Positions 300 through 28,552 of a stretch of DNA of 35,767 bases are shown here, in pieces (position 1 is the first letter of the stretch; each line of letters opens with the position of its first letter). The DNA comes from Bryobacterales bacterium. Lineage in GTDB: Bacteria > Acidobacteriota > Terriglobia > Bryobacterales > Bryobacteraceae. The position numbers were made by a program, and so were the translations under genes. Under the pieces are notes generated by a model. That model worked only from the letters and a program-made list of their open reading frames with translations. It did not search any database and was not told the DNA's origin. The stretch is taken from assembly GCA_030693045.1 (NCBI GenBank), contig JAUYBU010000398.1, positions 1-35,767 of the forward strand. The letters run 5' to 3'.

Positions 300-3200
300 A
301 TGAAACAATTTTGGCGAGTCGCATTGTGCTTGGTCGTTTTTGTGATGTCCGCCCTGGGACAGGCCGCCCGGACGGGGACGCTGGTCGGAACCGTGACCGA
401 TCCCGCGGGAGCGCTGGTTCCCGGCGCCAGGGTGACGGTCACCAACGTCGAGACCGCATTTGTCTCCAACGCCGTGACCAATGAAGAGGGCGCTTACTAC
501 GTTCCGTTCCTCAACGTCGGAATGTACGAGCTGAGAGTGGAAGCCGCGGGGTTCAAGGCTTTTGTCCAGAAGGGCCTTCAACTCCGCGCCGCGGAAGTGC
601 CGCGCATCGACGTGAAGCTCGAAGTCGGCGCAACCAGCGAGTCCGTCCAGGTTACCGGCGCGGTGCCGTTGCTGGAGACCGAAACCTCACAGGTGAGCCA
701 GACCGTCGAGTTCCAGGCCATCCAGCGGCTTCCCATTATGCAGATGAAGGCCCAGCGCATCCTCTACTATGTCGAGGGCCTGCAAATCCGAGGCGCCGAC
801 GCCAGCGTGGTGGGTCAGGCCTCCAGCGCGATCGGATTCACCCTGGACGGCGTCAGCGCCAAGACTTCCGTCCGCGACGCGATCGGCGACACCAACACCA
901 GCGTCCAGCCGGCCCTGGACGCGCTGGCCGAAGCCAAGGTTTACACCACCGGGGCCCCGGCCGAACTCGGTCACGCTTCCGGGGGCATCCTGGCGTTCAC
1001 CTACAAGAGCGGAACCAACGATCTGCACGGCTCGATGGAAGACCGCTGGACCAACAAAGACATGACCCACCGCGGCTACCTCGAGCAAGGCACCCGCAAG
1101 AACCCGATCACCTTCCACCAAGGGGTAGCAACGATCTCCGGCCCGCTGGTTCTGCCCAAGATCTACAACGGCCGGAACAAGACGTTCTTCCTGTTCGCCT
1201 ACGGCCGGCACCACGAGAAGACCGACGAGCCACAGGTGGCAACCGTGCCGGATCCGGGAATGCTGAGCGGAGACTTCAGCTTCCAGCAGGCCGCCGGCGG
1301 CGGCTATCCGATTTACGACCCCAAGTCGATTCGTCAGTCCGGCGCCACCTGGACCGCGGATCTGTTCCCGAACATGCGCGTTCCCATCAGCCGGTTCGAT
1401 CCCGTGGTCGTGAAATTCCTGGATCTGAAGCCTTGGGCGGAAGCAAATAATGCGGTGGGAACCACCTATACCCGCACGGGCCCCGTCAATAACTTCCTCG
1501 GCACGACGATCTATCGTTCTTATCGCAGCCGGTACGATACCAAGTTCGACCACCAGATCAGCCCGAAGAACAAGTTCTTTGTTCGTAACTCCTGGAACCG
1601 GCACCGCCAGTTGGGCCGCATCAACGTCTACGTCAACAATCGCGTGCTGGACAGCGCCGCCAACGGCTTCGGGCGGCCGAATCCGATCGACCAGCGGAAC
1701 TGGGCCTTTGCCGACTACCATACCTTCGGACCGACGCTGCTGAACGAACTGCGGCTGGGCTACGGGGTGCGCGTCAGCACCATTTCCCCGCCTTCGGTTG
1801 GCGGGGACTGGGCCCAGAAGCTGGGGATCCCCAACGTAGGCGGAGAGAACTTTCCAAGCTTCGGGCAGTACGGCATCGGCCCCGGGGCCTATTCGAAGGA
1901 CGTCAACGAGGATGTGACCTTCCAGAACAACGTGACCAAGGTGATGAGCCGGCACACCATCAAGTTCGGCTATGAGCTGATCCGAACCCGCGAAAATCAC
2001 GTCGATCAGGTATTGCCATCCGGCAACTACAGCTTCACCACGGGCGGCAGCGGGCTGCCCTTCACTCCCAATACGGGCAACTCATTCGCCTCGTTTGTGC
2101 TGGGCTCGGTCAGTTCGGCCACTTACACTCAGCAGTTATGGAATCGGCTGCCCCGCTGGTGGAGCCATTCGGGTTACATCCAGACCGATTGGAAGGCCAG
2201 GCCCAACCTGACGTTCAACCTGGGAGTACGCTACAGCCTTGAGACTCCGTTCAAAGACAAGTGGAGCCATCAGTCGCAATTCAGTCCCAGCGTGGCGGAT
2301 CCGCTGATCGGTAAGATGGGCGCTATCACTCATCCCCAGGGTGCGCTCTACCGCACTGACAAGAATAACTTCCAGCCTCGTGTCGGGCTGGCCTGGACCT
2401 TCAATCCGAAGATGGTGTTCCGCGGCTCGTTTGGCGTGCTCACGCAGGACCTGATGCCCACCGCCGGCTTCCAGGAATACGCCTCCACCGCCGTCGTGCA
2501 ACAGGTGACGGGCGATCCCCGGCCCGCGTTCTACCTCTCGCAAGGGCCTCCCAGCCGCAACTTCGTTCTCAACCCCGACGGAACCTCTCAGTTCCTCGGC
2601 ACCAACTACAGCGGCCGTGGCGCCACCTTCATCGATCCCGACCTGCGGATGCCGTACATCATGAATTGGTCCGCCAGCGTTCAGACTCAGTTGGGTCCGA
2701 CCTGGCTTGGCGAACTCCTGTACCAGGGCTCGTCGGGCGTGCGCCTGACGGGAAGCCCGAATATCAATCAGTTGGCTAAGTCGTACTACGATTCGACTGA
2801 CCTGACGCTGCTCAACGCCGTGTATTCGGCTACTCAGAACTACAGGCCCTATACTCAGTTCGGTGGCATCTCCCTGGTGACCAATGCCGGACATAACACC
2901 TACCACGGGTTCACCACGCGGGTTGAGAAACGATACGGGCCGGACGGACTTACCCTGAACGCCCACTACACCTGGAGCAAGAACCTTTCGGGCGGGGCGG
3001 GCGACGGCTGGCAGTATTACAACTGGAGCCTCACCAAAGCTCCCACCAGTTTCGACACCCGGCACCGGATCATCGTGCAAGGAGTGTACGACCTGCCGGT
3101 GGGCAAGGGCCGAAAACTCTTGAGCAGTGGCGGCCCGCTAAGCCACATCGTGGGCGGTTGGAACGTGGCCGTGATCGAGACCCTTCAATCCGGGCCGGCG

Positions 3201-3659
3201 GTCACGTTCGGTTTCGCCGGTAGTCCCAACAGGTACCTGCCTGGTCCCTCGCGACCCAATCAGCTTGTGCCCAACGATCAGGTCAAGGTGCCGGACTGGA
3301 GCATGGGACCCAACCGCTTCCCGCAGAACGCGCAGGACCCGCTCTACAAGATCGGCTCCTTCGCCTATCCGGCTCAGTTCACCTATGGCTCACTCGGAGG
3401 CGGCACAACGCGCGGGCGTTGGCTGCTGTGGCCGCAGTACTCTTTGTCGAAGAACTGGGCGATTGAGCGGTTCCGGTTCACCCTGCGCGTGGACGCGAAC
3501 TCGCTCCCGACGCGGCTGATGGCCACCACGCCGGATACGACCGTGAACCTCAGCAGTTCGGCGACCTTCGGGAAGTTCGGTCCGCAGACCAGCTCCAGCT
3601 ACTCCACTATGGGAGGGCTTAACGGCCAGATCATTATCAGCGGCCGCTTCGAATTCTGA
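300..3659 (+). CDS. Oar-like TonB-dependent outer-membrane receptor
   Basis: This 1119-residue protein begins with a signal peptide (hydrophobic stretch at about residues 5-20, ending near ALGQA). A carboxypeptidase-regulatory-like domain follows (about 24-110; motif GTLVGTVTDPAGALVPGA), then a plug-like region (VQVTGAVPLLETETSQVSQ onward) and a very long beta-barrel rich in aromatic/Asn-Tyr strands. It ends in the aromatic outer-membrane signature GRFEF. This architecture is that of the Oar-like receptors that are numerous in Acidobacteriota. These are presumed TonB/ExbB-energised importers or adhesins, but the ligand cannot be told from sequence. The ATG at 300 is supported by AAGGAG immediately upstream. 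No partner such as a SusD-like protein is adjacent. The gene lies just downstream of a putative IS21-type end, so its native promoter or regulator may have been displaced. Confidence 0.9.
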   Translation: MKQFWRVALCLVVFVMSALGQAARTGTLVGTVTDPAGALVPGARVTVTNVETAFVSNAVTNEEGAYYVPFLNVGMYELRVEAAGFKAFVQKGLQLRAAEVPRIDVKLEVGATSESVQVTGAVPLLETETSQVSQTVEFQAIQRLPIMQMKAQRILYYVEGLQIRGADASVVGQASSAIGFTLDGVSAKTSVRDAIGDTNTSVQPALDALAEAKVYTTGAPAELGHASGGILAFTYKSGTNDLHGSMEDRWTNKDMTHRGYLEQGTRKNPITFHQGVATISGPLVLPKIYNGRNKTFFLFAYGRHHEKTDEPQVATVPDPGMLSGDFSFQQAAGGGYPIYDPKSIRQSGATWTADLFPNMRVPISRFDPVVVKFLDLKPWAEANNAVGTTYTRTGPVNNFLGTTIYRSYRSRYDTKFDHQISPKNKFFVRNSWNRHRQLGRINVYVNNRVLDSAANGFGRPNPIDQRNWAFADYHTFGPTLLNELRLGYGVRVSTISPPSVGGDWAQKLGIPNVGGENFPSFGQYGIGPGAYSKDVNEDVTFQNNVTKVMSRHTIKFGYELIRTRENHVDQVLPSGNYSFTTGGSGLPFTPNTGNSFASFVLGSVSSATYTQQLWNRLPRWWSHSGYIQTDWKARPNLTFNLGVRYSLETPFKDKWSHQSQFSPSVADPLIGKMGAITHPQGALYRTDKNNFQPRVGLAWTFNPKMVFRGSFGVLTQDLMPTAGFQEYASTAVVQQVTGDPRPAFYLSQGPPSRNFVLNPDGTSQFLGTNYSGRGATFIDPDLRMPYIMNWSASVQTQLGPTWLGELLYQGSSGVRLTGSPNINQLAKSYYDSTDLTLLNAVYSATQNYRPYTQFGGISLVTNAGHNTYHGFTTRVEKRYGPDGLTLNAHYTWSKNLSGGAGDGWQYYNWSLTKAPTSFDTRHRIIVQGVYDLPVGKGRKLLSSGGPLSHIVGGWNVAVIETLQSGPAVTFGFAGSPNRYLPGPSRPNQLVPNDQVKVPDWSMGPNRFPQNAQDPLYKIGSFAYPAQFTYGSLGGGTTRGRWLLWPQYSLSKNWAIERFRFTLRVDANSLPTRLMATTPDTTVNLSSSATFGKFGPQTSSSYSTMGGLNGQIIISGRFEF

Positions 3660-14857: not shown

Positions 14858-17800
14858 CTACCGCCGGCGTGTGGTTCCGGCCGCGGGGTCGCCTTCGGCC
14901 GGCTGGAAGGCGGTTTTGACGGTGTAGCGCCCGCTGGCCGGACGGGCGGAGGTGACGAAGATCACGAAACTTCCGGGCGTCACGCCCACGCTGAGGCGGG
15001 CGATGGCGTCCTCACCCGCGATGGCCGCTTCGGCCACCGGCTGGCCCTCGGCGTCGCGCAAGGAAACCACGGGAACGAACTCCGCCGAGGACAGCTCGAT
15101 CCGGAGCGTGCCGGCGGCGGTGACGGCGACCTGGTAGCGGTGAACGAACGCATCCGACGCGCTACCCGGCAGGAGGTCGCTCAGCGCGCAGTCTCCGGAC
15201 GCCAGCGTCCCCTCCACCGTCTCCTCCAGCCCGATCTCCCTAACCGGGCAGGAGAGCGGCGCCACGGTTTGGAAGCTGGTCTTCAGGTTGAACGCTCCGG
15301 TGGTCAGGCCCGACGAACGCGCGACCAGGATGTACTCTCCCGGGCTTACAGTTGCGTTGAGGAGGCTTCTGCCCGACACGCCGGCGGCGGCGCTGAAGGC
15401 GACGGAGCTGAAGTTCGACCGATACAAAGCGACCTGCGGCGTGAACGCGGAAGCGCTCATCTCGGCCCCCAGCGTTCCGCGCTCCCCGACCACCACCTTG
15501 TACTGCGCCGCGTAAGAATGGTCCGTGCTGTTCGGAACGATGTCCTTACCGCGGCAGCCGCCGTGGTCGAAGGTTCCGGCCGCCGTGTCGCCCAGCCCGA
15601 GCGCGCGCGCCGCGCAGTCGGGCGCCGGCGCGTCCTGAATCCGGCTGCGGAAGGTGAACGCTCCGGCGCCGGCTGAACTGGCGTAGACAATGTACGGGGC
15701 CGGGTCCACGGTTGCAACAATGCGCGCCACCGAACCGCGTTGAGTCTTATTCGAGGCGATCATTCTCGACTCGGCGTCGTTCAGCCCGAGGGCCGGATCG
15801 AGAGTCGGGGACTCCATCTCGAGCGTCAGAACGCTTCGCCGGGGCGCGGTGATGCGATATAGGCTCACCGACGACGCGTCGGAACTGGGCGCCACCAGGT
15901 CGAGCATGAGGCAGTTCATGTCGCTGAGGGAACCCTGTGCGGTGGCGCCCGGGGCGATGTCGACAACCGGACACCCGGCTCCAACCATGGCCCGGAACAG
16001 GCTTTTCAGCGTGTAAGTGCCGGTTTGCGCTCCCGCCGAACTGGCCCAGACCGTGTACTCGCCTGGATTGAGACTGACGTTCAACTTGGCGCTGCCGCGA
16101 GTGGAACCGGACGCGGAGGCCAACTGCGAGGACCGCGAGTCGTAAACCGTGATCCGGGGCGTGAAGTCCGAGGAGGCGAGGTCCAGCGACAGCACCCCGC
16201 GCTGCGGCAGGGTGACGCGATAGCGGTCGACGTAGGCGGTGTCCGAACTGGGCCGCACCAGGTCCACCATCCGGCAGTCCGAGGCGGAAAGCGTCCCAGC
16301 CGCGGAGCCGACCAGAGCCAGATCCGCCGCCGGACAGGCCGGAGCGGATGCCGGGCGGAAGGAGACCGTCAGGTTGTACGTCCCGGTCTTCGCATCGGCC
16401 GCCGAGGCATGGATGAAATACGTGCCGGGGTTCAGGCTGATCATGAGCCGGGCGCTCTTGCCGCCGCCGCTGTTGTTGTCGCTGCCGATGAGAGAGAGGT
16501 TCTTGTCGTAAAAGGAAACGAAGGCGTCGAGATCGGCCGAGACCATTTCGACGGTGAGGGCGCCGGCCTCGGCGAGGGTGATCCGATAGGAATCCAGAAG
16601 CGCCGTGCTGGAACTCGCCGGAAAGACGTCCAACTGGCGGCAGCCGGCCGCGCCGAGGCTGGCCGATACCGTGTCGTTCAAGGCCAAGTCCCGCACCGGG
16701 CAAGACCGCGGCACAAGATCCTGGATGGCAGTCGTCAGGATGTACGACCCAGTCCGTGCATAGGACTGGGTGGTTCCGAGGCCGCGCACCTCGATAGCAT
16801 AGACGCCCGGGCTGACTCCGGCCTCGATGCGCGCGCTGTTGGCGCCGCCCTTCGCCTGCCCGGTGGAAACAACCGCGCCGGCCGGGTTGAGCAGCCGCAA
16901 GGCAGCCTCGAGAGGGAACGTGGCTTTCAGTTCGAGCGTCAACAGGCCGCTCCGCTCCACTTTCAAGGTATAGTTTAACTGCGGCGAGTCGTCTACCGAC
17001 GGGATGGTCCGGTCCGCCACGCGACAGCCGGTCGCGAGCAGCTCGCCGCTCGCGGCCTGGCCCGGGATCAGGGCGCGCGCCGTGCAGTCGCGCGGCGCCT
17101 CGAAGGTCGCGCCCAGGCTATACTCTCCCACGTACTCGCCGTGGGCGCGGATGTAAATGTAGTAGTTGCCCGGCTCGACACTGGCGAGGATCTTCGCTGC
17201 CGGTTGGCCGCCCCAGTGCTGTTTTGAGGCAAGCTGACGCCCCTGCCGATCGAACAGCTCGAGATAGGCCACAAACCAGGTGGAACGCGAGCTGAGGGTG
17301 AACTCCATCACTCCGCGAGTGGTCGGCGAGACCATGAAGGAATCGGTCACCGAACGGTCCGTACTGCCGGTCACGATGTCCATATAGCGACAGCCCGTCG
17401 GATTCAGGACATAGTCGAGCGGGGGGACGTTGAAGCGCAAGGTACGAACACTGCACTGTCCCTGGTTGCTGGTTTCGAAGGTGGCCGTCAACGTAAAGGC
17501 GCCCGTCCCAAACGACGACTGGGCGCGGAGATCCAGAACGTAAGCGCCCGCAGCGAGGCTCACTGTGAGCGTCAGCTTGATGCCTTCGAACTCCTGTCTC
17601 ACGCCGGCGACCTCGCGGTTGGCGGAATCGTAGAGGCGGGCGGACACATAGCCCGAGTCGATGAGCGCCGACGTAACGTTCACGGTCACGGTTCCGCGTT
17701 CCTGGACGGTGATGCGGAAACGCTCGGCCCCGGCCGCGTTGGTGGAGAACATCTGTAGATCGAGTACGCGGCAGGCGGACTTGGAAAAGTCGCCACTTAC

Positions 17801-18274
17801 GGCGCCGCCGAACTTCAGGTCGGGAATGGGACATGCCCCGAGCGGTCCTAACTTCGCGGTGAGCCGGAACGCCCCGGTTGCCGAACCCCAGGATGTTGCC
17901 GCGATAATGTAAGTCCCGGCCGAGAGGCTCACGGAGCTTCTGGCGAAGTTGATGTGCGCGTAGTCGGCCTGATACATGATCCGGTTGCCCCGCGAGCCGA
18001 GTACGAAGAATGCCGGCGAATAAGACGACGAATAGAGTTCGACCGAGAGAACGCCGGGTTGCGTCAGCGTGAAACGGTACTGGCGGATCAGGGTATCGGG
18101 ACTTTCCGAGACCATGTCGCCGGTGGTGAAGCAGCCAGGCCGGGATAACTCGCCCTCCACGGTCTGCCCGGTCGCGGTGGGCTGGATGTCCACGACCGGA
18201 CAGTTGGTTCCGGACTGCGCTCCGGCCACGGAGGTAAGCGCAAGAAGGAGAACGATGAGGCGGAGACGGGTCAT
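14858..18274 (-). CDS. Secreted nine-module PPC-like domain protein with paired cysteines
   Basis: An 1138-residue exported protein. A signal peptide (hydrophobic LRLIVLLLALTSVAGA, probable cleavage before Gln20) is followed by nine tandem modules of 119-128 residues starting at about residues 25, 148, 274, 397, 525, 647, 768, 887 and 1009. Each begins with C[PASTV]xx[DAET][LI] and has a second cysteine 19-22 residues later. It then continues with a Y[RK][IV]T..RG.L.[LV]E pattern and ends in G.Y.[IVL].A.S.......Y.L, resembling the bacterial pre-peptidase C-terminal (PPC) beta-sandwich fold. The mature chain has exactly 18 cysteines, all in these pairs, so nine disulfides are expected. No catalytic, anchoring or sorting domain is visible. 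A role in surface binding or matrix is a guess. No operon partner. Confidence 0.8.
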   Translation of the reverse strand: MTRLRLIVLLLALTSVAGAQSGTNCPVVDIQPTATGQTVEGELSRPGCFTTGDMVSESPDTLIRQYRFTLTQPGVLSVELYSSSYSPAFFVLGSRGNRIMYQADYAHINFARSSVSLSAGTYIIAATSWGSATGAFRLTAKLGPLGACPIPDLKFGGAVSGDFSKSACRVLDLQMFSTNAAGAERFRITVQERGTVTVNVTSALIDSGYVSARLYDSANREVAGVRQEFEGIKLTLTVSLAAGAYVLDLRAQSSFGTGAFTLTATFETSNQGQCSVRTLRFNVPPLDYVLNPTGCRYMDIVTGSTDRSVTDSFMVSPTTRGVMEFTLSSRSTWFVAYLELFDRQGRQLASKQHWGGQPAAKILASVEPGNYYIYIRAHGEYVGEYSLGATFEAPRDCTARALIPGQAASGELLATGCRVADRTIPSVDDSPQLNYTLKVERSGLLTLELKATFPLEAALRLLNPAGAVVSTGQAKGGANSARIEAGVSPGVYAIEVRGLGTTQSYARTGSYILTTAIQDLVPRSCPVRDLALNDTVSASLGAAGCRQLDVFPASSSTALLDSYRITLAEAGALTVEMVSADLDAFVSFYDKNLSLIGSDNNSGGGKSARLMISLNPGTYFIHASAADAKTGTYNLTVSFRPASAPACPAADLALVGSAAGTLSASDCRMVDLVRPSSDTAYVDRYRVTLPQRGVLSLDLASSDFTPRITVYDSRSSQLASASGSTRGSAKLNVSLNPGEYTVWASSAGAQTGTYTLKSLFRAMVGAGCPVVDIAPGATAQGSLSDMNCLMLDLVAPSSDASSVSLYRITAPRRSVLTLEMESPTLDPALGLNDAESRMIASNKTQRGSVARIVATVDPAPYIVYASSAGAGAFTFRSRIQDAPAPDCAARALGLGDTAAGTFDHGGCRGKDIVPNSTDHSYAAQYKVVVGERGTLGAEMSASAFTPQVALYRSNFSSVAFSAAAGVSGRSLLNATVSPGEYILVARSSGLTTGAFNLKTSFQTVAPLSCPVREIGLEETVEGTLASGDCALSDLLPGSASDAFVHRYQVAVTAAGTLRIELSSAEFVPVVSLRDAEGQPVAEAAIAGEDAIARLSVGVTPGSFVIFVTSARPASGRYTVKTAFQPAEGDPAAGTTRRR

Positions 18275-22214: not shown

Positions 22215-23993
22215 ATGAAACGGTCGGTGAAGTTCTGCGCCGCTTGGGCGGCGTTCGGGTTGTGCACGGCGGGAATGGCGCAGACAGTGCCTGCGATCAC
22301 CGCGACTCCGGTGGCGCTGTCGTTCAGCTACCAGATCGGAGCGCTCACGCTGCCGGTGGCGCAGGCGCTGGCGATCAAGCGCAGCCCGGCCGGAACGGCG
22401 CTGGACTTCACGGTCTCGGTGCCGGGCACGGCGCCCTGGCTCATCGTGACCCCTTCCACGGGCAAGACCGGGACTTCGGTCAGCGTCCGGGTCAACCCGA
22501 CGTCGCTGCCGGTCGGGGCTTACGCGGCGGATGTGACGATAAGTTCCGGCACCTCGGATCCGGCGGTAATCCCGGTGTCGCTGGCCATCAAGAACCCGCC
22601 TCCCAAGATGACCCTGGCGCCGACCTCGCTCCCGTTCACCTACGTGACCGACCAAAGCCTGCCGGTGGACCCGCAGACCATGACCGTGGCGACCGACGGC
22701 GAGCCCCTGTCGTTCACGTCCGCCGTAAGCGGCGGCACATGGCTTGCCGCCACGCCGGCGCTGGGCATCGCCGTGGCGGGCAGTCCGGTAACGCTTACAG
22801 TTTCGGTGACCACCACCGGGCTGCTGCCGGGTTCCTATAGCGGAAAGATTACGCTGACTTCGGCCAACGCGTCCAATAAGTCGGCTTTTGTCACCGTGTT
22901 GCTGACCGTGGCGCCGGGGGAGGCCGTGGTCACTTCCATCTGGCCGAGCGCCGCGCCGATCGGTTCCAACGATCAGACCATCACGATTCGCGGCAACCAC
23001 CTCTTCAAGGCCAGCCTCGTGCAGGCCGGCACGACGACGCTGACCATCACCTGGATCTCGACGGATACGATGCTGGCGGTGATTCCCAAGGCGTCGTTGC
23101 TGTCGGCAACCGGGCTCGGCGTGAGCGTCACCAACACCGGGCAGTCGGCTTCCGTCCCGGACGTCAACAGCACCTTCACCGTGACGCCGCTAGGCCCTCT
23201 GATCCAGACCGTGGGCGCGAGCGTGGGCGTGGTCAACGCCGCCAGTTTCAAGATCGACAGTCCGAAGCCCCTGATCGCGCCCGGAGAGATCCTGTCCATT
23301 TTCGGCTCCGGGCTCGGCCCCACCGTGCTGGTATCCTCCGTTCCGACCAGCGGCGTCTTTCCAACCACGGTCGGAACGCCCGCCGCCAAAGTCGAGTTTG
23401 GAACGGCTTCCGGCTCTCCTCCCGTTTGCGGTACGTGGCTCGCGGCGCCGATTATTTTCGCGCAAGCCAACCAGATCAACGCCGTCGCTCCCTTTGCGCT
23501 GACATCGGCGGCGGGCCAGTGCCTGCGCGTCACCTACAACAGCATCGCGTCGGCGGCGGTGACGTTTAACGGCGTTACCGCCAACCCGGGACTGTTCACC
23601 GTCGATTCGTCCGGGCGCGGGCAAATCGCGGCCTTCAACTACGACGCCGTAAAGGGCTATTCGCTGAACTCGGCTGCTAATCCGGCGCCCAAGGATTCAA
23701 TTGTCGTGCTCTACGGCACCGGCGGCGGCGTCACCAGCCCGCTGCCGACGTCCGAAGGCCAGGTCATCCCCACCACCGGCACCGTGCCGACGGTCGTGGG
23801 AGTGCCTACCCTCACCATCGGCGGCGAGGCCGCCAGCGTGCTGTCGATTACGGCCGTCCCAGGCTCGATTGCGGGCCTGATGCAGTTGAACGTCACGGTG
23901 CCCTCGACGGTCAAGACGGCCAAGGACGCGGCCGTGGTGCTGTCGATCGGCGGACAATCTTCCAGCGCCTTCGGGACGCTGGCCGTGAAGTGA
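22215..23993 (+). CDS. Secreted BACON/IPT protein with Solibacter C-terminal domain
   Basis: A 592-residue exported protein. A signal peptide (FCAAWAAFGLCTAGMAQ) is followed by two BACON-like Ig modules (about 25-125 with APWLIVTPSTGKTG and 128-230 with GGTWLAATPALG), then an IPT/TIG domain (about 238-325, WPSAAPIGSNDQTITIRG). A C-terminal block of about 250 residues opens GVVNAASFKIDSPKPLIAPG and ends VVLSIGGQSSSAF, matching the TIGR03437 'Solibacter uncharacterized C-terminal domain'. These modules suggest binding to carbohydrate, mucin or another surface ligand; no enzymatic domain is visible. The start has a good Shine-Dalgarno (TAGGAG). It converges with the second receptor gene. Confidence 0.85.
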   Translation: MKRSVKFCAAWAAFGLCTAGMAQTVPAITATPVALSFSYQIGALTLPVAQALAIKRSPAGTALDFTVSVPGTAPWLIVTPSTGKTGTSVSVRVNPTSLPVGAYAADVTISSGTSDPAVIPVSLAIKNPPPKMTLAPTSLPFTYVTDQSLPVDPQTMTVATDGEPLSFTSAVSGGTWLAATPALGIAVAGSPVTLTVSVTTTGLLPGSYSGKITLTSANASNKSAFVTVLLTVAPGEAVVTSIWPSAAPIGSNDQTITIRGNHLFKASLVQAGTTTLTITWISTDTMLAVIPKASLLSATGLGVSVTNTGQSASVPDVNSTFTVTPLGPLIQTVGASVGVVNAASFKIDSPKPLIAPGEILSIFGSGLGPTVLVSSVPTSGVFPTTVGTPAAKVEFGTASGSPPVCGTWLAAPIIFAQANQINAVAPFALTSAAGQCLRVTYNSIASAAVTFNGVTANPGLFTVDSSGRGQIAAFNYDAVKGYSLNSAANPAPKDSIVVLYGTGGGVTSPLPTSEGQVIPTTGTVPTVVGVPTLTIGGEAASVLSITAVPGSIAGLMQLNVTVPSTVKTAKDAAVVLSIGGQSSSAFGTLAVK

Positions 23994-24042: not shown

Positions 24043-27000
24043 TTACCAGTTCAGGCGGATCGCCAGTTGCACCCGGCGCGGGCTGCGCGCGCCGGTCGGC
24101 TCCAAAAACAGCGGGTCGACCTGCTCACCCTGCGCGCTGAATCGCGCCGCGGTGGACAGCGCGGAGAACTGGGTGTGGTTGAACGTGTTGTAGGTCTCCA
24201 GCCGCAGTTGCGCCGTCAGCCGCTCGTACATCTTGAAAAGTTTGTACATCGAAATGTCCCAGTTGTGGATGCCGTGGTTGCGCAACACGCCCACTCCCAG
24301 GTTTCCCCAGGTTCCGCGCGCGGGCCTGCCGAATCGTTCCTTCGGCGCGGCGTTCGGGTCGAGCACGTCCATGCGCGCGCTTTCCGACGGTGTCCCGGTG
24401 ATGTCCTGGCCATCGACGGTCGAAAAGCCCGGCGTGAACGGACTGCCCGTCGAGAACCGGCTGATGCCGGCCAGTTCCCAGCCGTCGGCGACCAGGCCCA
24501 GTGCCTTCAACCCGTACCGCTTGCCGGGTTTCGGAAGCGTCCAGGTGTAACGCAGCGACGCCACGTGGGTCAGATCGTAGGACAGCGGCCCGTAATTTCG
24601 CCGGCGCGCCGGGTGAAAGGCGCTGACCGTCGTCGTGTTCGTGCTGGCCGTGCCGAGCGCCTTCGAAAAGCTGTACGAGAAACCCAACATAACGCCGCGC
24701 GTCATGCGGCGGTTGAAGCTCGCCAGCAGCCCGTTGTAACTTGAGGTCGAGCCGAATTCGACCAGGTTGATATCGGCGTAACCCTGATACGGCCGCAGGA
24801 AGTTGATGGGCAACGCGCGCCTGGTGGTCGGGTCCATGTTCTCCGGATGCTCATCCATGAATCGCGCGCCCGCGGGCACCGGATTGATGTTGCGTTCCCA
24901 GAGCAGGTGCCGCGAGATCGAGCCGGCGTAGGAAACATCCAAAATCATGCCGCGCGACAGTTGCTGCTGAGTGCCGAAGCTGAAGTTGTAGGTGACGGAG
25001 CTGGGCTGATGGCCGTGCATCGACACCATGGTGCCGCCTGGCGCCAGCAGCGCCTGTCCTTCGGTCGCCAGCAACGTGTCGAACGTGCCGAAGTAGACGG
25101 TGGGCGTATACTGCCCCGGCGGGTTCGGCAGCGAGCGGATGATGGCGTTGGCCGGGATGCGGTCGTAGAAGACGCCTCCACCGCCGCGGACAGCCGTGCG
25201 CCCGCGTCCGAACGGGTCCCACGCAAAACCGAATCGCGGCGCCACGCTCAGCCAGTTCTGTGTGTAGAGCGAACGCGCCGCGCCGTTGACGCCGCCTACA
25301 ATCATGCCGATAGCCGGGTCTCCCACGCCGGGAACATAGGTGCCGATCAGCGCCTGGTTGTAAATGGCGCCGGTGCCCGGATCGACCGCGACTTTCGCGC
25401 CTGTGGCGTCGAAGGCCGGCCGCAGGAGCACCGGCGCCCCGGCCGGATCGTAGAGTGATGGAAGGAAGGCGGAGACGAGCTTGCGCACGTCGTAGTGCGG
25501 ACCGTGGTGGTAGAAGCGAAGCCCGTAGTCCAGAAGCAGCCGCGGCCGCGCGCGCCAGGCGTCCTGCACGTACCACTCCAGGTTGGTGAACCGGAACTGG
25601 CCTTCCGGCCGCGAAGTCGGCTCGGCGTAGCTGTAATAGATCCCCATCAGCGCGTTGGAGTAGGGGTGGTAGGAGTCGATCGGATTGTTCGTGTCGCGGT
25701 CGAAGCGCAACGTGCCCCGCACCGGAATGGGCGTGTTGCGCTCCACCTTGCGCGTGCGCTCGACGTAGAGGCCGAACTTCCAGGAGTGCGTGCCGGCGAT
25801 TTTGCTCACGTTGTCGACGAAACTGAAAATGGCGTTGGCGTTGTAGTAGGGCAGACCCGTAGCCAGCGACGGATTCGCGTAGTTGCTGACGCCCGAAAAA
25901 CTCATGTTCGGAATGAGGCCCTCGGGGTTGTTCCGCGGATACCATTGAGGAACGTCGATACCGGTGCCCTTGCGGCTCACGCGCTCGGAAGACTCGGGGT
26001 AGTAGTCGCGCGTGTTTTCGCTTGCGCCGAAGATGAATTCGTTGAAGACGGTCGGCGACACCGTGGTGGTGGTGTGCAGCGCGGCGCCGCGCCCCGGCTG
26101 GTGAAACACGATCGGCACCAGGGGGAAGTTGACGCTGCCGTTGGCCGTCGACCCGAACACGGGTCTCTGTTCGTCGCCGTTGCGGCTCACCCGCACGTAC
26201 AGTTGAATGTTCTGCCGCGGCGAGTAATCGACGCGCGCGGTCTCGGAGCTGCGCGGATACGGCGCGCTCATCTGCGAGATGTAGTTCCACTGGTAGCGGC
26301 GCGATGGTGCGGGATCGACGAAGTTGGGCAGCGGGAACAGGTTCAGCACATTGACGCCGATGGGGTTGAATCGGCTCGCCGGCACGCGGTTGCCGGGAAA
26401 CGCCGTGCGGCCGGCCAGGGGGTCGTAGACGGTCATGATCCGGCTGTTGACGTCGTAGGTGGCCGAAAAGTCGCCGCCGCGCTCGGCCGCCGTCGGAACG
26501 CGCACGGTGCGCGCCGGATAGGTCACCAGTTGCCGCTGGAACTCCTGCGACCAGAAGAAGAAAAGCTTGGAGCGGTCCGAATTGAACCTGCCGGGAATCC
26601 AGATCGGGCCGCTGAGAGTGTAGCTGGCGATGTTGTAGCGATAGCGCGGCCGTTGGAGGCCGTTGCGGTTGTTGAAGAAGTCGTTCGCCGAAAAACTCTC
26701 GTGGCGGTAATACCAACCGGCCGAGGCGCGGAACTGCCTGGCGCCCCCGCGCGTGATGATGCTGATGGTTCCGCCCGAGTTGCGCCCGTGTTCGGCGGCG
26801 TAATTGGACATCAGCACCTTCACTTCGCCCAGCGAATCCATCGACGGCATGTAATGGACCGTGCCGTTGGCGCCGGTGTCGAGGTTGGTCACGCCATCGA
26901 CGGTCATGTTCTTCGAACTCGACCGGCCGCCCAGGATGAAGATGTTCTGGATCGAGTTCGGCGCCGGCGCATCACGGCTGTCGGCCATGTCCACCACCCC

Positions 27001-27477
27001 GGCCACCAATCCGACGGCGTCCATGAAATCGCGCCCGCGTAGCGCCATGCTCTCGATCACTTCGCCGGTCAGCACGCCGGCCTTTTCCGAAGAACCCAAC
27101 TGCACCGGAGCGGCCTCGGCGGTCACGGTCACGCTCTCGGTCACTTCGCCCACCGTCATCACGATCGCGCCGAGCGAGCGCTGGTCGCCCGAGTTGAGCG
27201 CAATGCCATTCTGCTGGTAGCGCTTGAAGCCGGGCGCGGCGACGCTCAAGGTGTAGGTGGCGGCCGTGAGGTCGGGGAACGAGAAGAAGCCGGAGGCGTT
27301 GCTACGGGTGGTCCGCAGGAATCCGGTCTGCTCGTCCGTCAGCAGGACCGGGACCCCCGGCAGCACGGCCTGGAGCGTATCTTGCACCGTGCCCGAGAGC
27401 GAGCCGGAAACGTTCTGCCCGAACCCGGCGGACGCCGCCAGCACGAACAATACTGCTTTCGCAACAGTCTGTTTCAC
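24043..27477 (-). CDS. Oar-like TonB-dependent outer-membrane receptor
   Basis: A 1144-residue receptor with a signal peptide (KQTVAKAVLFVLAASAGFGQ). A carboxypeptidase-regulatory-like domain (about 22-110, SGSLSGTVQDTLQAVLPGVP) precedes a plug-like domain containing VTVTAEAAPVQLGSSEKAG and LRGRDFMDAVGLV. A long barrel follows, ending RRVQLAIRLNW with a C-terminal aromatic residue. It is related in architecture to the receptor at 300 but clearly diverged. The ORF opens at 27636; I prefer the GTG at 27477 because the signal peptide begins there and the upstream 53 residues overlap the divergent hydrolase gene and its promoter. The ligand is unknown. The divergent secreted hydrolase could prepare its substrate. 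Confidence 0.87.
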   Translation of the reverse strand: MKQTVAKAVLFVLAASAGFGQNVSGSLSGTVQDTLQAVLPGVPVLLTDEQTGFLRTTRSNASGFFSFPDLTAATYTLSVAAPGFKRYQQNGIALNSGDQRSLGAIVMTVGEVTESVTVTAEAAPVQLGSSEKAGVLTGEVIESMALRGRDFMDAVGLVAGVVDMADSRDAPAPNSIQNIFILGGRSSSKNMTVDGVTNLDTGANGTVHYMPSMDSLGEVKVLMSNYAAEHGRNSGGTISIITRGGARQFRASAGWYYRHESFSANDFFNNRNGLQRPRYRYNIASYTLSGPIWIPGRFNSDRSKLFFFWSQEFQRQLVTYPARTVRVPTAAERGGDFSATYDVNSRIMTVYDPLAGRTAFPGNRVPASRFNPIGVNVLNLFPLPNFVDPAPSRRYQWNYISQMSAPYPRSSETARVDYSPRQNIQLYVRVSRNGDEQRPVFGSTANGSVNFPLVPIVFHQPGRGAALHTTTTVSPTVFNEFIFGASENTRDYYPESSERVSRKGTGIDVPQWYPRNNPEGLIPNMSFSGVSNYANPSLATGLPYYNANAIFSFVDNVSKIAGTHSWKFGLYVERTRKVERNTPIPVRGTLRFDRDTNNPIDSYHPYSNALMGIYYSYAEPTSRPEGQFRFTNLEWYVQDAWRARPRLLLDYGLRFYHHGPHYDVRKLVSAFLPSLYDPAGAPVLLRPAFDATGAKVAVDPGTGAIYNQALIGTYVPGVGDPAIGMIVGGVNGAARSLYTQNWLSVAPRFGFAWDPFGRGRTAVRGGGGVFYDRIPANAIIRSLPNPPGQYTPTVYFGTFDTLLATEGQALLAPGGTMVSMHGHQPSSVTYNFSFGTQQQLSRGMILDVSYAGSISRHLLWERNINPVPAGARFMDEHPENMDPTTRRALPINFLRPYQGYADINLVEFGSTSSYNGLLASFNRRMTRGVMLGFSYSFSKALGTASTNTTTVSAFHPARRRNYGPLSYDLTHVASLRYTWTLPKPGKRYGLKALGLVADGWELAGISRFSTGSPFTPGFSTVDGQDITGTPSESARMDVLDPNAAPKERFGRPARGTWGNLGVGVLRNHGIHNWDISMYKLFKMYERLTAQLRLETYNTFNHTQFSALSTAARFSAQGEQVDPLFLEPTGARSPRRVQLAIRLNW

Positions 27478-27484
27478 TACTCTA

Positions 27485-27512
27485 TTTAACCACCTTCGCG
27501 CTGGCCTATAAT
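27485..27512 (+). promoter_or_regulatory. Promoter of the secreted hydrolase gene
   Basis: A perfect -10 TATAAT (27507-27512) with a weak -35 TTTAAC (27485-27490) at 16 bp; the start codon is about 20 bases downstream. The near-symmetric core also gives CATTAT on the minus strand (27515-27510), upstream of the divergent receptor, so it may fire both ways. Confidence 0.5.
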
Positions 27513-27532
27513 GGGCTTTCGCGAGGCCCGCC

Positions 27533-28552
27533 ATGCGCGCTCTGCTACTGCTGACCACGACCGCAATCTGCTGCGCCGCCGAATCCTGCCGCACGGCGAC
27601 GGATGCTTGTCTGGAGTTGATTCCGATTGCCAACAACCTGAAGATCGCGGCCTATCGTTCGCATTCGCTCTCGACGGCGCAGCCGAATCTGGAGCGCGCC
27701 GTGATTGTGATTCACGGAACCAATCGCGACGCCGACCGCTATTACACGGGCCTGGTCGCGGCCGCTGAAAAGGCCGGCGCCATCGAAAAGACGCTACTGA
27801 TTTCGCCCTACTTCCGAGGCAAGGACCGCGGCTGCGATGACAAGGTGGCGGCCGGCGAGCTGTACTTCACCTGCAACGGATGGAAATACGGCGATTCGGC
27901 GGTCAACGCGAAGGACATTTACTCGTTCACGGTCACCGACCGCCTGGTCCGGATGCTCGCCGATCGCGCGAAGTTTCCGAAGCTCCGCGCGATTGTGGTG
28001 GTGGGGCACTCGGCGGGCGGCCAGTTCCTCCAGCGCTACGCCGCCGGGACCCGGATCGACACGCAAGTGCGCGTGAGCGTCCGTTTCGTCGTGATGAATC
28101 CGTCCTCCTACATGTATCTGGACGCGAAGCGGCTGGCCAAAGGCGCGACCTGTTCCGAAAACGGAACCTGCACCGGGCCGTTCCAGGTGGAGGGCGCCGC
28201 CGACGGCTGCCCCTCTTTCAACCAATACCGCTACGGCATCGAGAACCTCGCCGGCTACTTGGGCCGGACGACCGGCGGAGAGATCCGGAAGCGCTTCCCG
28301 AAGAAGGATGTGGTCTACCTGGTTGGCGAGAAGGACGTCGATCGGAACGATCCGAGCCTGGACAAGAGCTGCGAATCGATGAAGCAGGGCGCCTTTCGCC
28401 GCGAGCGCGGCACCATTTTCTGGAACTACATGAAGTCGCTCTACAAAGCCGGGCACGGCTTTGGAATTGCGCCGGGCTGCGCGCACAACGGCGGCTGCAT
28501 GCTGGCCTCCGAGCCGGGATTGCGGGCGTTGTTCGACAGGAAACAGCAGTAG
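27533..28552 (+). CDS. Secreted, cysteine-rich alpha/beta hydrolase
   Basis: A 339-residue protein with an N-terminal signal peptide (MRALLLLTTTAICCAAES). The alpha/beta-hydrolase features are the oxyanion strand VIVIHGTNRDADRYY (residues 57-71), the nucleophile elbow GHSAGGQ with Ser160, a candidate acid in VGEKDVDRNDP and a candidate His in KAGHGFGIAPG. Many cysteines (for example CSENGTC, PGCAHNGGCM, DKSCES) suggest several disulfides in an exported enzyme. The exact ester or peptide substrate is not evident. CGAGG lies before the ATG. It is transcribed divergently from a TonB-dependent receptor, a context compatible with extracellular degradation followed by uptake, but this is inference. 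Confidence 0.8.
   Translation: MRALLLLTTTAICCAAESCRTATDACLELIPIANNLKIAAYRSHSLSTAQPNLERAVIVIHGTNRDADRYYTGLVAAAEKAGAIEKTLLISPYFRGKDRGCDDKVAAGELYFTCNGWKYGDSAVNAKDIYSFTVTDRLVRMLADRAKFPKLRAIVVVGHSAGGQFLQRYAAGTRIDTQVRVSVRFVVMNPSSYMYLDAKRLAKGATCSENGTCTGPFQVEGAADGCPSFNQYRYGIENLAGYLGRTTGGEIRKRFPKKDVVYLVGEKDVDRNDPSLDKSCESMKQGAFRRERGTIFWNYMKSLYKAGHGFGIAPGCAHNGGCMLASEPGLRALFDRKQQ

Follow-up and report, generated by a model that had tools for sequence, protein, structure and literature searches.

Nine cysteine-paired PPC modules in one exported Bryobacterales protein, and an apparently undescribed family of enzyme-less PPC arrays in Acidobacteriota

The window analysed here is the whole stretch of 35,767 nucleotides of contig JAUYBU010000398.1 from a Bryobacterales bacterium (GCA_030693045.1), and it contains a gene for an exported protein made of nine tandem PPC modules (Table 1). 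The ORF starts with ATG, and its translation, read directly, opens with the signal peptide MTRLRLIVLLLALTSVAGA, followed by QSG with module 1 immediately behind; the same reading found no lipobox, no second hydrophobic segment and no sorting tail. The whole protein matches PF04151 (PPC) in Pfam with E = 6e-16 and 59.5 bits (curated cut-off 25.9 bits). Besides PPC, the Pfam search of the 1138 residues found no enzymatic domain, and an NCBIfam search of the protein gave no match. The original prediction that the protein has neither an enzyme nor an anchor is therefore borne out by both domain libraries and by the direct reading. A scan for promoters and terminators gave no signal clearly above shuffled sequences.

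An OYE-type flavoenzyme gene precedes the array gene by 61 bases, with an MFS transporter gene beyond it; all three are on the same strand, and the array gene converges with two ABC-2 permease genes. In an all-against-all BLAST comparison of array neighbourhoods no neighbour was stable across genera, so the function of the array protein is probably independent of the adjacent genes. Elsewhere in the window, positions 22215-23993 encode a protein that combines a CoaZ PGGG repeat and a BACON-like stretch with the Solibacter C-terminal domain TIGR03437 (E 2.9e-44). Two large outer-membrane beta-barrel proteins of the OMP_b-brl_4 type, with CarboxypepD_reg domains, are encoded at positions 300-3659 and 24043-27636.

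Table 1. Position of the PPC array gene and of its parts in the window
Feature	Position	Strand	Remark
Nine-module PPC array gene, 1138 aa	14858..18274	minus	ORF call, translation, Pfam
Signal peptide, type I, residues 1-19	18218..18274	minus	cleavage expected after AGA; read from translation
PPC module 1, Cys 25/48	17834..18202	minus	
PPC module 2, Cys 148/168	17456..17833	minus	
PPC module 3, Cys 274/295	17087..17455	minus	
PPC module 4, Cys 397/417	16703..17086	minus	
PPC module 5, Cys 525/545	16337..16702	minus	modelled alone and in triplet
PPC module 6, Cys 647/667	15974..16336	minus	
PPC module 7, Cys 768/788	15617..15973	minus	
PPC module 8, Cys 887/907	15251..15616	minus	
PPC module 9, Cys 1009/1029	14861..15250	minus	with short tail ending RRR

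From the first to the ninth, the modules are 123, 126, 123, 128, 122, 121, 119, 122 and 130 residues long, the last including an 11-residue tail. Each module opens with a Cys, and the 18 Cys of the protein form nine pairs with none outside, at offsets of 23, 20, 21, 20, 20, 20, 20, 20 and 20 (19-22 residues between). When 18 Cys were placed at random 200,000 times, at most six of the nine consecutive pairs fell at an offset of 19-24. The Cys positions thus agree with what had been predicted of the array: nine tandem modules, all 18 Cys paired, and this spacing. The window modules share 18-31% identity with module 1 and at most 41% with module 5; invariant among the nine are the two Cys and one Gly, the core Tyr/Phe positions are kept in 9/9, and the acidic D/N-rich loop typical of PPC (SDNNSGGG) is retained in module 5 only. 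Identities of only 18-41% indicate an old divergent repeat rather than a recent tandem duplication.

An AlphaFold2 model of module 5, built from an alignment of 42 modules, has a mean pLDDT of 96.0 and a pTM of 0.88 and shows an all-beta sandwich whose single short helix directly follows Cys21. Its best Foldseek match is the PPC domain of the B. anthracis collagenase (5sv5, E 3e-09, TM 0.70/0.80), and further top matches are the collagen-binding domains (CBDs) of ColG and ColH. Although phmmer with the whole array protein found no match among solved structures, a sequence-profile search did, hitting the ColG tandem CBD (E 6e-05) in agreement with Foldseek. The closest solved folds are accordingly 5sv5 and the Hathewaya histolytica CBDs (5iku, 1nqd, 3jqw), with TM 0.6-0.7 by query. 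The window module is thus predicted to be a PPC beta-sandwich; modelling a single module bore out the proposed sandwich (pLDDT 96), and its assignment to PPC is upheld by the Pfam profile and the predicted fold together. Foldseek also matched the g-type lysozyme inhibitor PliG (4dzg, E 9.5e-05, TM 0.63/0.67), by analogy with which the protein might be a periplasmic or surface inhibitor. We regard this as very improbable, because PliG ranks under the PPC matches with 13% identity, which reflects the shared sandwich fold, is a single-domain protein, and is absent from the sequence-profile matches to solved structures.

A model of modules 5 to 7, built from 24 triplets, has a pLDDT of 93.8, a pTM of 0.85 and linkers at about 90, so that adjacent modules are predicted to be held in a defined mutual arrangement. 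The best PDB match of the triplet is again the ColG tandem CBD, but with a TM of 0.25 over the query; as the match fails over the whole triplet, the packing of the modules need not be that of ColG. Of the rod that had been proposed for the full chain, the defined arrangement stands, and the support extends as far as this arrangement in a three-module model.

Arrays of this kind are found well beyond the window. The source genome itself encodes a five-module enzyme-less paralog with paired Cys (G000:C579:5234-7117, or L006:5234-7117), next to which lies a gene that looks by eye like a deoC-like aldolase. Strong module matches occur in 51 of 237 genomes of the same Acidobacteriota family, some of which are not pure arrays: the loci examined there comprise some modular enzymes besides clean arrays, which have 4, 5 or 6 modules. 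The genus is represented in the set by one further genome, which has no module match. In the window protein and in most of 26 other arrays, with N-termini judged by eye, an export signal is followed by PPC modules alone. When the alignment of six-module orthologs was used to scan a genome collection, relatives were found in Candidatus Solibacter, Bryobacterales and Solibacteraceae MAGs, while scans of the collection with the module alignment and with the window protein itself gave no matches. In another Acidobacteriota family, L137:1373-4681 encodes a protein of 1102 aa with a signal peptide, nine Cys-paired PPC modules and no enzyme, and nine modules are therefore not unique to the window protein. 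The two differ in that sequence similarity is low, L137 has a few extra Cys, and its modules match the profile weakly except for the last one; a full-length L137 ortholog is absent from the 9 other genomes searched in that family. The profile search thus agrees with the expectation that enzyme-less arrays recur in Acidobacteriota with variable copy number (4, 5, 6 and 9 modules).

The six-module orthologs are 40-76% identical over several genera. Among orthologous arrays, the closer pairs, whose dS can be used, give a dN/dS of about 0.2-0.4, which indicates purifying selection rather than decay. In a module tree with few columns and weak deep forks, modules cluster partly by first, last or inner position and not by protein, and within ortholog groups the modules keep their number and order. 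The positional grouping in the tree suggests that the array is old and ordered. Recent expansion of the array was considered and is rejected on the 18-41% module identity together with this grouping.

PPC domains usually accompany peptidases (Pfam family description; PMC3327674). The window protein resembles PF04151 proteins in profile match, beta-sandwich fold and export, and differs from the usual PPC in having nine copies and no peptidase N-terminal to them; in each module the Cys pair lies in about 30 N-terminal residues ahead of the 70-position Pfam PPC model. The usual association would fit a decaying tail of a protease that has lost its catalytic domain, an origin that is largely refuted and scarcely credible here: the signal peptide abuts module 1, the nine modules are intact with no stops and all 18 Cys kept, and the enzyme-less design recurs across numerous species and is under purifying selection there. 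A literature search of open-access papers turned up no account of PPC arrays that stand alone. The Cys-paired enzyme-less PPC arrays are thus a real family and apparently an undescribed one.

The Cys pair is present in 146/146 modules of 27 enzyme-less arrays, a count favoured by the search, since the pair is part of the profile that detected the arrays, and the offset is 20 or 21 in 133 of the 152 pairs counted. The module profile also detects PPC modules without Cys (L033), none of them inside an array. The invariance of the pair and the export of the protein strongly imply one disulfide per module, which would link Cys1, in the N-terminal segment, with Cys21, where the first short helix begins. 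It would form after Sec export, by periplasmic oxidation through DsbA-like proteins. Two exported DsbA-like proteins (CPYC and CPDC) are encoded in the source genome; searches of this genome (G000, 92% complete) for DsbB and VKOR found neither, and a search for VKOR in relatives found it absent in 38 of 41.

Clostridial CBDs require calcium for collagen binding (PMC6168687). Our hypothesis is that the disulfide performs the role of the calcium clamp, which holds the N-terminal linker in the clostridial collagen-binding PPC domains, and would replace it. The only ColG ligand that can be mapped onto the modules, the core calcium ligand D930, corresponds to a position that is acidic in 4/9 window modules, the linker ligands not being alignable. 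Vibrio-type collagenase PPC domains also bind collagen (PMC8799719, PMC6168687), and the Grimontia collagenase PPC, with two disulfides, does so without calcium (PMC6168687). The M9A collagenase PPC of Grimontia hollisae and Vibrio resembles the window modules in possessing conserved Cys, with disulfides supported by mass, and is independent of calcium, as is proposed for the window modules; it differs in that the Grimontia PPC has four Cys and two disulfides and is a single domain on a collagenase.

The same module is also found behind proteases. Within the same bacterial family, Cys-paired modules lie C-terminal to trypsin-like (L126), M12B (L118, L120, L122) and S8 (L117) domains, and they have the Cys pair offset of about 20 and the profile in common with the window modules. 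Whereas the window array has nine modules and no enzyme, these proteins carry one or two copies, often with BACON domains. The module thus represents a PPC subtype with paired Cys, and the arrays form its branch without enzymes. Two further proteins look anchored (L129:1728-4580 and L029:8078-9559), in that a cytoplasmic-looking N-terminal region and a hydrophobic segment are followed by Cys-paired PPC modules; L129 ends, by eye, in a PEGA-like tail. The suggestion of a distinct protein type, putatively of the surface or matrix, therefore holds for the enzyme-less architecture, which is real and conserved, but not for the Cys-paired module, which also occurs behind proteases and in anchored versions. 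The arrays might also serve in trans as partners of the cell's own PPC-bearing secreted proteases, presenting substrates to them, restraining them or stabilising them. The protease-linked modules of the same family would fit this, as would the cis effect of PPC domains on the stability and efficiency of proteases (PMC3327674), but no protease gene recurs beside the array in the window or in other genomes, the window neighbours being the flavoenzyme, the transporter and the permeases, and we consider such a partnership distinctly unlikely.

Binding by PPC domains has precedents in collagenases and in protease E495, whose PPC domains bind proteins via D26, D28, Y30 and Y/W65 (PMC3327674). The position that we equate with E495 D28 is acidic in only 4/9 window modules. 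ColG has tandem PPC, as the window array does, but attached to an M9 collagenase. Its collagen-binding aromatic residues, which we take to be Y970, Y994 and Y996, fall at positions that are aromatic in 1, 16 and 19 of the 146 array modules and in 0/9, 0/9 and 1/9 of the window modules. As the aromatics are mostly absent, the known collagen-binding surface is not conserved, and collagen binding via the ColG surface is rejected on these residues.

The reading that we prefer, at a probability of roughly 0.4, is that the window protein is a secreted, non-enzymatic, multivalent binding protein. Its nine PPC beta-sandwich modules with short linkers would form one semi-rigid chain, which, presumably located outside the cell, would bind an extracellular protein or another polymer by the avidity of many weak sites and so serve as an adhesive or a scaffold in the envelope or its surroundings. 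Counted against this reading are the absence of the ColG aromatics, the E495 D28 position acidic in 4/9 modules, the negative DsbB and VKOR searches and the lack of a conserved neighbour. Instead of binding a particular partner, the modules could be there for stiffness and length alone, so that the array would be a structural spacer or a rod of the envelope, comparable to the Ig or Fn3 stalks of a surface layer, a sheath or a matrix. The defined arrangement in the triplet model (pTM 0.85), the module number and order kept within ortholog groups, the 40-76% identity of the six-module orthologs, and the retention of the core (Cys pair, Tyr/Phe and Gly) while the modules diverge would all suit a spacer. 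However, the window protein has no anchor or terminal functional head and hence nothing to space, the length of the array differs among lineages from 4 to 9, and the PPC domains that have been tested functionally are binders or regulators. A spacer is thus possible though rather unlikely, and we place the binding protein above it on account of the PPC binding precedents.

The array family is conserved and apparently undescribed, although it is built from the already known PPC domain. Acidobacteriota are abundant in soil, and their cell surface is poorly understood. In a broader and doubtful proposal, the arrays would be a widespread Acidobacteriota class of scaffolds or adhesins in which a covalent staple replaces the calcium clamp, and calcium-independent multivalent rods would suit acidic, low-calcium soils. 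The invariant Cys pair makes it simple to test if the calcium clamp found in the collagen-binding relatives can be replaced by a disulfide. PPC is known as an accessory of secreted proteases, and a conserved family consisting of PPC only would mean that the module also has an independent function, which would probably be binding or scaffolding.
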